This document shows, piece after piece, positions 28,892-32,696 of a DNA stretch of 64,000 nt. Under the pieces are notes generated by a model. That model was given only the letters and a program-made list of their open reading frames with translations. It made no database searches and was not told where the DNA came from. Source of the stretch: Caulobacter sp. GTDB taxonomy: Bacteria > Pseudomonadota > Alphaproteobacteria > Caulobacterales > Caulobacteraceae. The translations under genes and the position numbers were made by a program. Positions within the stretch are counted from its first letter, which is position 1. Every line of letters begins with the position of its first letter. The stretch spans positions 1-64,000 of the forward strand of contig JAUXVF010000029.1 of NCBI GenBank assembly GCA_030680355.1. Direction: 5' to 3'.

Positions 28892-29781
28892 TCCCGTTCG
28901 TCCGTGACATCCGTTTCGAGTACGGCGCCTGCGACCGGCTGACGCCGCTGATCCGCCGGGTGGTGGCCAACAACCCCGGCCCCTTCACCTTCATGGGCAC
29001 CGGCACCTACATCATCGGCAACGGCGACGTGGCGGTGATCGATCCCGGGCCCGACATGGATGACCACCTCCAGGCCCTGCTGGCGGCGACGGCCGGGGAA
29101 CGGGTCACCCATATCTTCGTCACCCACAACCATCTCGACCACTCCCCCCTGGCCAGGCCGCTGGCCGAGGCGACGGGGGCGACCATCTACGCCTGCGCCA
29201 TGCAGGGCGAGCCGACCGAGTCCGAAGTCAGGATGGAAGCCGGCGACGACCGGGTCTTCACCCCCGACGTGGGGCTCTGCGACGGCGGCGTCTTCAAGGG
29301 TGGCGACTGGACGATGGAGGCCATTCCCACCCCCGGCCACACCTCCAACCACATCTGCTACGCCCTGCTCGAGGAGAACGCCCTGTTCTCCGGCGACCAC
29401 ATCATGGGCTGGTCAACGACGGTCATCAGCCCGCCCGACGGCGACATGGGCGACTATTTCGCCAGCCTTGAGCGGGTCAGGAACCGGGCGTTCTCAACCC
29501 TGTGGCCGACCCACGGCCCGCCGATCACCGAGCCCGGCCCGTTCGTCCAAGCCTATATCGACCACCGCAAGGCGCGCGAGGCCCAGATCCTGGACGCCCT
29601 GGCCCAGGGGCAGACCCGGATCAAGGCCATGGTGCCAGTGCTCTATCAGGCCGTTGACCCCCGCCTGCATCCGGCGGCCGCCCATTCGGTGATGGCCCAC
29701 GTGATCCAGATGGTGAAGGACGGCCGCGTCGTCTGCGACGGCGCGCCCGGTCTCGACAGCGACTACCGGCTGGCGTCCTAG
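28888..29781 (+). CDS. MBL-fold metallo-hydrolase, LACTB2-like
   Basis: A 297-residue metallo-beta-lactamase-fold enzyme. The metal site is intact: THNHLDHS near residue 78 (His-x-His-x-Asp-His), PTPGHTSNH near residue 148, and LFSGDHIMGW with the bridging Asp. The C-terminal winged-helix-like region (LDALAQGQTRIKAMVPVLYQ) marks the LACTB2/GloB-like branch that includes nucleases and thioesterases. Substrate unknown. The start ATG overlaps the stop of the ATP-grasp-like gene. Its own TAG stop shares the palindromic CTAG with the stop of the convergent ligase-fusion gene. Confidence 0.9.
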   Translation: MIPFVRDIRFEYGACDRLTPLIRRVVANNPGPFTFMGTGTYIIGNGDVAVIDPGPDMDDHLQALLAATAGERVTHIFVTHNHLDHSPLARPLAEATGATIYACAMQGEPTESEVRMEAGDDRVFTPDVGLCDGGVFKGGDWTMEAIPTPGHTSNHICYALLEENALFSGDHIMGWSTTVISPPDGDMGDYFASLERVRNRAFSTLWPTHGPPITEPGPFVQAYIDHRKAREAQILDALAQGQTRIKAMVPVLYQAVDPRLHPAAAHSVMAHVIQMVKDGRVVCDGAPGLDSDYRLAS

Positions 29782-32696
29782 CCGCGGATCGCCGCCACCA
29801 GGGTGGTGATCCTGTCGCAGTTGGCCCCCAGGTCCAGACGGTTCATCCGGCTACTGGATCGAAGATCGATGCGGGCGCCGGCGCCCTCTGGCCGTATGCG
29901 AACCGCGACATCGTCCTTGAAGCCGTACCAGAAGGTTTCCGCGGTGGCCTCCAGGCGGCCGGCGGCGGCGTCGGCGGTGACCAGTTTCAGGCCGGCCCGC
30001 GACAGGGCCGTCCGCGCCGCCTCGAAGGCGGCTTCGGTCGGCGCAGACAGCACCACCGAACGGGCGCCCGGGCAGGTTTCCGCGTTGACCTCGGCGATCG
30101 ACCGCCCGGCATAGGCGCGCGAGCCGACCGGCAGGATCGGGGATGGATCGACAGGGTTCGCCTTACGCCCACGCGTGCGGATCAGGGCGTCGGAGAACAT
30201 CACCGGCTCACGCCAGTCGGTCGCCGCCTCGGTGATCGGCGGCGCCGCCTCGGCCTTGAGTTGCGCTCCGAAGAACAGCCCCCAGGTCAGCGCCGTCACC
30301 ACCAGGGCCAGAATCGCCCGGCCCCAGAGCCGGCCCGCGCCGCCGAAGATGGCGACCAGCAGGCCGATCAGGCCGGTCACGACACTGACCAGGGCGATCG
30401 CCGGCGCCCAGCCCAGGAAGGGGGTCGGACCATGCTGGAGCATGGCGAAATAGCCCTGCTCCTCGGTCAGCAGGCCAAGGCGGATGCCCAGGGCGCCGAC
30501 CGCCACCATGACCGCGGGGGCCAGCGCCACGAGGATGGCCAGGTTGAGATAGCCGTCGGCCAGGCCGCCGCCCGCCTTTTTCTTCTTCCTGGCCTTGGTT
30601 TTCGGCTTGAGACCGACCGGCGGCGACATGACCAGCGGCGCTTCGACCTTGTCAGCCTTTTCGGGCGCCGCCGCCGTCTTGACGGTCTCACCGTGCAGGC
30701 TGAGCGGGCGATCGCCGGCGGCCTCGTCGTCCTTCACCGGCGTCATGGCTGGCGCGTCGGAAAGCGTCGGGGCGTCGGCTTTGACGGGCGCAGCCTCACC
30801 TTCCGCGGCCGGTTCAACAACAGCTGGCTCAGGCTTGTCGACGGCAGGCTCGGACGGCGCGGCGTCCGTCTTCACCGCCTCGGCTTCGACCGGCGCGGGG
30901 TTTTCAGATTCGGCTGTGGGCGAGTCTTCGGCCCCGGCGAGCGCCACGCTCGCCGGGGCCTCAGATTTTCCCGGTGAATCCTCTGGCGCATGAAGCACCG
31001 GATCCGGGGCCGCCCGCTCGGCGACCGTTGCCGCGACCAGCACCGGCGTGGCGGGCAGGACGTAGTCCTTCAGCCGCTGCCGAATGAGCTTCTTGTCGAT
31101 CTTGCCGGTGGCTCCCAGGGGGATGTCATCGACGAAGGCGACGTCGTCGGGCATCCACCATTTGGCGATCTTGCCCTCAAGGAAGCGCAGAATCTCTTCC
31201 TTGCTCGCCTTTTCTCCGGATTTTAGCTTGATCACCAGCAACGGCCGCTCGTCCCATTTGGGATGGGGCAGGCCGATCACGGCGGCCAGATCGACCTTGG
31301 GGTGACCGACCGCGATGTTCTCGATGTCGATCGTGCTGATCCATTCGCCGCCGGATTTGATGACGTCCTTGGCGCGGTCGGTGATCTGCATGAAGCCTTC
31401 GGAGTCGATGGTGGCCACGTCCCCGGTGTCGAAGAAGCCGTCTCCATCGAGGATGCGGCCGCCCGCGCCCTTGAAATACTCGCGGACCACGAACGGCCCC
31501 TTGACCTTCAGATGGCCGAAGGTCTTGGCGTCATGGGGCAGCTCGCGGCCCTCATCGTCGGTCAGCTTCAGGTCGATGCCCAGGGGCGGACGGCCCTGCT
31601 TGAGCTTGTAGGCCATGCGTTCGTCGTAGGAGAGGCCGGCCACCCGCGCGTTGGGCGCGCCCAGCGTGCCCAGGGGCGAGGTTTCGGTCATGCCCCAGGC
31701 GTGCAGCACATCGACGCCGTAACGGTCGTGGAAGCCGCGGATAATGCTTTCGGGACAGGCCGCTCCGCCGATTACCACCTTGGTCAGGGTGGTCAGCTTG
31801 CCCTTGGTCTCGTCGAGATGCTGCAGGAGCATCTGCCAGACGGTGGGCACCGCCGCCGAGAAGGTGACCCCCTCGGTCTCCAGCAGTTCGTGGATCGAAG
31901 CGCCGTCCATCTTCGGGCCCGGCATGACCAGCTTGGCTCCGACGCCGGGGCAGGCGAAGGCCGTGCCCCAGGCGTTGGCGTGGAACATCGGCACCACCGG
32001 CAGAACGGTGTCCAGGGCCGACAGCCCCAGGACATCCCGCTGAAGGCCGACCAGGGTGTGGATGTAGTTCGACCGGTGGGAATAGAGCACGCCCTTGGGA
32101 TCGCCGGTCGTGCCCGAGGTGTAGCAGAGCCCGCAGGCGGTGTTCTCGTCAAAGCCGCCCCAGGCCACGTCGGGACTGCTGCCGTCGATCAGCGACTCAT
32201 AGGTATGCGACCCCTGCCATTTCAGGGTCGGCACGCCCCGGATCTGGAACGGCGGCATGTGGTGGTGGTCGGTCATGATCACGACATGCTCGACCGACGG
32301 ACAGTCGGCGAGAATCTGCTCGATGATCGGCACGAAGGTGAGATCGACGAAAATGATGCGGTCTTCCGCGTGGCGGATGATCCAGGCGATCTGATCAGGG
32401 TGCAGGCGCGGATTGAGCGTGTGGCACACCGCGCCAATGCCCATGATGCCGTACCAGGCTTCCATGTGCCGGCCTGTGTTCCAGGCCAGGGTAGCGACCC
32501 GGTCGCCATGTTTGATGTCCAGGCCCAGCAGGGCGTTGGACAGGCGGCGGGCCCGCTCATGGAGCTGGGCGTAGGTGGTCCTGACAATCGGCCCCTCGAC
32601 CGAGCGGCTGACGACCTCGCGTTCGCCGTGCCATCGCTTGGCGTGATCCAGGATCGTGTCGACGGTCAGCGCCGACTGCTGCATCAAGCCCTGCAT
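29778..32696 (-). CDS. Fusion protein: AMP-forming acyl-CoA ligase, linker, three TM helices, DUF1499
   Basis: A single open frame of 972 residues. Residues 1-545 are a complete fatty-acyl/3-methylthiopropionyl-CoA-ligase-like enzyme: [19 protein letters not shown] (P-loop), [29 protein letters not shown] and the catalytic Lys in GATGKIDKK. Residues about 546-700 are a disordered Ala/Pro/Glu-rich linker ending in KTKARKKKK. Three transmembrane helices follow (about 714-739, 759-782, 792-812), and residues about 828-972 are a DUF1499 domain. The topology suggests a cytosolic ligase anchored to the membrane with DUF1499 on the far side. Start at 32696 has GGGGAGA upstream. The fusion is odd; the parts are normally separate genes. 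Confidence 0.88.

Follow-up and report, generated by a model that had tools for sequence, protein, structure and literature searches.

A putative programmed −1 frameshift signal in the linker of a fused acyl-CoA ligase–DUF1499 gene of Caulobacter and related bacteria

The stretch of Caulobacter sp. DNA investigated here (the window; positions 1 to 64,000 of contig JAUXVF010000029.1, GenBank assembly GCA_030680355.1, 64,000 nucleotides (nt) in all) carries on its reverse strand an open reading frame (ORF) at 29778..32696, which starts with ATG and encodes 972 amino acids (aa) in 972 codons. In this single frame an acyl-CoA ligase is joined to three transmembrane (TM) helices and a DUF1499 domain, through a linker that contains a putative signal for −1 ribosomal frameshifting. 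An earlier note on the window, made from its letters alone, had described the uninterrupted frame, which was confirmed, and the order of the domains, which was borne out by Pfam, NCBIfam, hydropathy and AlphaFold2 analyses. The ligase domain comprises residues 1-545 (31062..32696, − strand) and is of the PRK06018 type, based on Pfam, NCBIfam and PDB alignments. Pfam matches were obtained for AMP-binding (residues 18-408, 1.2e-74) and AMP-binding_C (residues 458-532, 6.9e-18), and the NCBIfam model PRK06018 (NF004674) matched residues 1-551 with 962.9 bits at a curated cut-off of 766, while PRK07008, for 3-(methylthio)propionyl-CoA ligase, stayed at 772.1 bits below its curated cut-off of 822. 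The best PDB chain was 6ihk (616 bits), followed by 6ijb and by 1ult (481 bits), a Thermus long-chain fatty acyl-CoA synthetase. In the PDB alignment an 11-residue ligase motif is present and almost unaltered, and GATGKIDKK of the window ligase aligns with the catalytic-lysine motif. Among the best 60 of 187 PDB matches, none reaches past residue 568 into the TM-DUF1499 part.

The linker, rich in alanine, proline and glutamate and ending in a K/R patch, spans residues 546-711 (30564..31061, −), as judged from translation and hydropathy. It is followed by the three TM helices at residues about 712-817 (30246..30563, −), found by hydropathy, with two weaker stretches within the ligase disregarded, and by AlphaFold2. 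The model of residues 710-972 (mean predicted local distance difference test score, pLDDT, 91) places the helices at about 712-739, 763-785 and 791-817 and folds residues from about 823 to 972 into a small alpha/beta domain. Within that domain lies the Pfam match to DUF1499 (PF07386; residues 878-969, 29790..30065, −; 3.1e-18, 66.7 bits against a gathering cut-off of 22.6). The membrane tether proposed earlier is supported by both methods. Because the K/R patch precedes the first helix and the number of helices is odd, we infer that the ligase would lie in the cytoplasm and DUF1499 on the far side of the inner membrane, as the earlier note had also supposed.

Within the linker, the elements expected of a −1 frameshift site follow closely upon one another on the − strand. 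A Shine-Dalgarno (SD)-like GAGG (30980..30983) lies 7 nt upstream of the slippery heptamer G_GGA_AAA (30966..30972), which covers 0-frame codons 576-577. One codon beyond the heptamer the −1 frame has a TGA (30961..30963), and a GC hairpin with a 14-bp stem and a 3-nt loop (30930..30960) begins 5 nt after the heptamer. Ribosomes in the −1 frame would read GGG AAA ATC TGA and stop, yielding a 578-aa product that ends in GKI. The 19-nt core, GGGAAAATCTGAGGCCCCG, is identical in 9 of 75 genomes of the genus, and core and GAGG together are invariant over the 10 aligned sequences of the window clade. The published cassette rules (Sharma 2014; PMC4066793) ask for GAGG, GGAG or AGGA 6-17 nt before the second base of the motif and for a hairpin of at least 7.6 kcal/mol 4-10 nt downstream. 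The window has such an SD-like element, a hairpin (start at 5 nt, −33.0 kcal/mol) and a conserved signal with synonymous-site constraint. A 57-nt stretch containing the hairpin folds with −43.6 kcal/mol (z −6.4), which none of 200 shuffles equalled. Across the window clade 96% of the stem pairs are kept, eight never vary and one is broken in 4 of 10 sequences. What stands out there is the fixed stem core with its 5-nt spacer. This very stable stem could instead be read as a terminator or another regulatory RNA within the gene. We give this reading hardly any credence: no U-run follows the hairpin, Rfam gave no match over 29700-32900 at E up to 1, and other groups keep a heptamer though their downstream sequence differs. 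Elsewhere in the window's genome, a copy of the core with one mismatch (G000:C27:20207-20225) sits between UbiA-like and desaturase-like genes, named by eye.

The fusion itself is not peculiar to the window. Single-frame alignments over 971-972 residues were obtained in 21 of 61 genomes searched, all of the same genus, with the genome of the window among them. The genome contigs yielded 69 loci, of which 46 are fused (L189 with a divergent ligase), 17 have the ligase in a separate frame and 6 have no ligase on the stretch. Two of the 17 are special: an internal stop interrupts the fused gene of L124, and the frames of L168 overlap. The fusion thus recurs across Caulobacter, and this recurrence across genomes rules out a sequencing frameshift or a chimera as its source, including the missed stop or frameshift that had been considered earlier. 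Nor do close relatives all encode two genes at this locus, the other possibility raised at that time: the fusion is conserved within the genus, and separate same-strand genes for ligase and TM-DUF1499 are found in seven other genera of the family (sample labels g12, g13, g14, g18, g20, g28 and g29) and, within the order, in families f2 and f3. At these two-gene loci the TM-DUF1499 frames measure 238-385 codons and the spacing ranges from overlap to about 1.6 kb. Genera g21, g24 and g25 have a DUF1499 gene and no such ligase on the stretch examined, and the TM-DUF1499 part gave no match in 8 of the 22 genera sampled. From this distribution, two separate genes look like the ancestral state.

Other groups have slippery sites of a different sequence. 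A sister Caulobacter group (tree support 0.95) has C_CCT_TTT in the linker, with a −1 TGA immediately after it. In Phenylobacterium, the TM segment was matched in 35 of 101 genomes, and 25 of the 30 loci fetched, to which the following counts refer, have C_CCT_TTT in the ligase frame. Fifteen of these are in-frame fusions whose −1 frame stops two codons beyond the heptamer. In the other ten (the split genes) the arrangement is inverted: a stop ends the 0 frame three codons beyond the heptamer in every one of them, and the TM helices are encoded in the −1 frame. Five split genes belonged to the family sample, and none of these showed a DUF1499 match after the TM match. The frame change at the peptide level coincides with the heptamer, since in-frame relatives mostly read PF-(P/Q)xE and the split genes read PF followed by S(A/G)E in 7 of 10. 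The remaining five loci are L202, with CCCTTTC, L205 of Phenylobacterium aquaticum, L209, with a window-type gene, and L210 and L211, without a heptamer. In P. aquaticum KACC 18306 (L168/L205) the 650-codon ligase frame stops within the linker, and a second frame that overlaps it encodes TM-DUF1499; the frame switch lies upstream of CCCTTTT, a break unlike that of the ten inverted genomes.

The split genes might also be sequencing errors, decaying genes or pairs of separately started genes. The TM frame does overlap the ligase frame, and some ATG, GTG or TTG is present in the open −1 frame of eight of the ten. However, heptamer and three-codon stop distance are the same in all ten, one of which is a single-contig genome, and the TM segment is conserved, the other nine being 62-94% identical to that of G155. 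Furthermore, six of the ten have no ATG, GTG or TTG between slip site and first TM helix, and in two of the ten the open −1 frame, followed as far as 40 codons beyond the slip, has none. We therefore consider error, decay or separate starts very unlikely.

Codon usage indicates that the heptamers are under constraint. Codons ending in A or T make up 6-9% of codons in the window-clade, in-frame Phenylobacterium and split Phenylobacterium sets. We examined degenerate columns that were invariant in amino acid and counted those ending in A or T in every sequence. The window clade (6 of the nine sequences listed, without L121, L123 and L125) had 4 such columns in 475, three of which are GGA AAA TCT; the in-frame Phenylobacterium genes (7 sequences) had 4 in 388 and the split genes (5 sequences) 3 in 471, with two in each set being CCT TTT. 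In all three alignments, it is solely at the heptamer that neighbouring codons end in A or T throughout the set. Six identical codons in a row are not rare in themselves, the longest run in the 6 sequences being 11. In 40,000 synonymous shuffles of the window linker, a heptamer with a nearby −1 stop arose 253 times, 172 times with an SD-like element and 94 times with both this element and the fold.

The combination is also enriched at this locus. Among 610 ORFs selected by codon-position GC, a heptamer with a −1 stop within three codons was present in 16 of 55 genes of this locus versus 6 of 555 others, and one of these six is the P. aquaticum TM-DUF1499 frame, which is itself from this locus. 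When an SD-like element and a hairpin of at least 15 kcal/mol were added, 16 of 23 sites remained, all in genes of this locus, with one of them (L121, GGGTTTT) falling outside the linker. An SD-like element was found 4-16 nt upstream at 40 of 43 sites (40 of 42 distinct ones, L208 and L162 having the same sequence) versus 24-30% of linker positions. For the window, 3 of 60 random positions elsewhere in the same gene had an equally strong hairpin.

Several observations weigh against a functional frameshift signal. In the same hairpin control, equally strong structures turned up at 180 of 600 positions when the window clade was scored as a whole and at 50 of 420 in the second Caulobacter group; the two Phenylobacterium sets gave 288 of 960 and 208 of 600. 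For genes this rich in GC, most of the hairpins are of ordinary strength, and hairpin strength was dropped as independent proof. By itself the cassette hairpin rule says little where DNA is rich in GC, as 86 of 120 linker positions taken at random pass it, and although one stem pair runs through A-U, G-U and G-C, covariation does not beat column shuffles. Heptamer, SD-like element and fold were jointly found in just 8 of 12 relatives in the shuffle test. CCT TTT was missed by the codon-column test in the second Caulobacter group (13% A/T-ending codons), which probably reflects poor alignment of the linkers. The heptamer is altered to CCCTTTC in L175 and L202 and missing in L210 and L211, and the SD-like element is missing in L024 and in L208/L162. 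Finally, 25 aligned fused Caulobacter genes (25 of 26, without L151) lack an A/T-type heptamer with a −1 stop close by in the linker, and none of their A/T-ending codons is conserved. No hidden signal is conserved in these genes, a single isolated tetramer being found in L157, and the fusion therefore works without the signal there.

These genes argue for a plain gene fusion, in which the 972-aa tethered ligase would be the sole product and the heptamer incidental, as they show that the fusion can exist alone; the ordinary strength of most hairpins points the same way. Against a plain fusion stand the conservation of GGA AAA TCT and CCT TTT, whose A/T-ending codons are rare in these genes, the inverted arrangement at the same kind of site in Phenylobacterium and the enrichment of heptamer plus −1 stop at this locus, and we regard it as unlikely.

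We consider it probable, at about 80%, that the gene gives two products through programmed −1 ribosomal frameshifting in the manner of dnaX, which carries an SD-like element and a hairpin. Ribosomes that stay in frame would make the 972-aa ligase-linker-TM-DUF1499 protein, anchored in the inner membrane with its ligase in the cytoplasm. Others, pausing between GAGG and the hairpin, would shift back one base at G_GGA_AAA and terminate after a single further codon, which would release the 578-aa soluble ligase. Of the single fused product assumed in the earlier note, the long frame stands, whereas two products are probable in place of one, given the heptamer and the nearby −1 stop in the linker. 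The short form would restore the free ligase of the ancestral two-gene arrangement, for which, given the apparent two-gene ancestry, the cell may have kept a need after the fusion. Short and long ligase subunits may assemble into mixed oligomers that would place a fixed proportion of the enzyme at the membrane, and a role in fatty acid uptake is conceivable. In the ten split Phenylobacterium genes the roles would be inverted, with the 0 frame giving the short form and a −1 slip at C_CCT_TTT the membrane form, apparently without DUF1499.

In Escherichia coli dnaX, half of the ribosomes slip by −1 and stop one codon later, so that, as proposed for the window gene, one gene yields a shorter form without its C-terminal domains (gamma beside tau), and a few bacteria seem to have the reverse arrangement (PMC5009743). 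The dnaX gamma form of Caulobacter crescentus is made by proteolysis instead (PMC5009743). Unlike dnaX, the window gene encodes a metabolic enzyme, its optional part is a membrane anchor with DUF1499 and the heptamer is G_GGA_AAA or C_CCT_TTT. The −1 frameshift in E. coli copA likewise lets a gene for a membrane protein yield a short product of its N-terminal part; that product is a 70-aa putative chaperone, whereas the short product here would be a whole enzyme (PMC5009743). Slippage of RNA polymerase, as reported for Thermus dnaX, would give the same two products from the same DNA (PMC5009743). We regard this as highly improbable, since both GAGG and the phase of the heptamer agree with slippage by the ribosome. 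Polymerase slippage usually takes place at longer homopolymers, and the run here is only four A or four T.

As for the heptamers themselves, Sharma et al. found that of 64 in E. coli, 55 were prone to frameshifting under one set of stimulators and 61 under a stronger one, and that UUN and AAN codons were more liable to shift on average (PMC4066793). The GeneTack clusters of frameshifted genes (magnesium chelatase, DUF111, DUF772, spore germination) show frame transitions, most with fused relatives, and were tested in vivo; they concern genes other than this ligase, and the terms AMP-dependent, AMP-binding, acyl-CoA and CoA ligase are absent from the main text available (PMC3711429). Judging by titles and the beginnings of abstracts, frameshifting in acyl-CoA ligases was not found in the literature searched, which excluded subscription papers, preprints and supplements. 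Fusions of the LplT-Aas type combine a lipid transporter with an acyl-activating enzyme; they resemble the window gene in joining an activation enzyme to a membrane part, and their domains differ.

In a FastTree phylogeny of the ligase, the rooting of which is uncertain as the intended outgroup was filtered out, Phenylobacterium groups with a two-gene clade (support 0.99) and apart from Caulobacter, which suggests at least two fusions. On balance we lean towards a history in which ligase and TM-DUF1499 were fused at least twice, and in which Caulobacter and Phenylobacterium each gained a −1 switch that keeps a free ligase. Frameshifting would then set the ratio of cytosolic to tethered enzyme, and Phenylobacterium would hold both polarities, short form by slip and long form by slip. 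In CRAIB_MAG19, a Caulobacteraceae metagenome-assembled genome (MAG; G068, L189, 5883-8762), DUF1499 is joined to a ligase that is 32% identical and has no AMP-binding_C match, which looks like an independent third fusion or a ligase replacement. Caulobacter genomes G007 and G148 (L113 and L100) keep ligase, linker and TM helices in about 795 codons and have no DUF1499 there, which suggests that the tether alone can be retained. Genomes G003, G009, G013, G027 and G031 of this genus gave no DUF1499 match whatsoever. Two MAG copies deserve mention: L124 has an internal stop in its ligase part and an intact frameshift core, and G236 (L125), labelled Phenylobacterium, has both a window-type fused gene with a 1005-codon frame and a second ligase-TM gene (C23, 765-codon frame) and may be a chimeric bin or a case of transfer.

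In the part of the literature searched, DUF1499 is mentioned in two papers, a single time in each, and no function is given. By fold, compared with BamC, KA1 and helix-grip folds, it has just a common small alpha/beta arrangement, and a profile search gave no solved relative (best E 0.36). The N-termini of 13 short stand-alone DUF1499 proteins, inspected by eye, were lipoprotein-like in two, N-terminal-anchor-like in five and without evident signal in six, so that as evidence for a periplasmic location they are mixed. The window's genome has a second, stand-alone TM-DUF1499 gene (G000:C26:113177-113971), with no such ligase on the 11-kb stretch around it. Downstream of the fused gene, a gene of the metallo-beta-lactamase fold (Lactamase_B and BLACT_WH; window 28888-29781) converges on it and overlaps its stop codon. 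It stays close to the locus in many relatives, usually lies near the two-gene loci and adjoins the fused gene of L189.

To our knowledge, few non-mobile bacterial genes use programmed frameshifting (examples are described in PMC5009743 and PMC3711429), and this would be the first metabolic enzyme we know of whose membrane attachment is set in this way. The proposed switch would add a chromosomal enzyme family to the frameshifting genes, with both polarities among close relatives. The Caulobacter clade without the signal is a natural control, so that the origin of such switches becomes directly testable. DUF1499 would gain a first partner, and the share of a fatty-acid-activating enzyme that resides at the membrane may be set at the ribosome.

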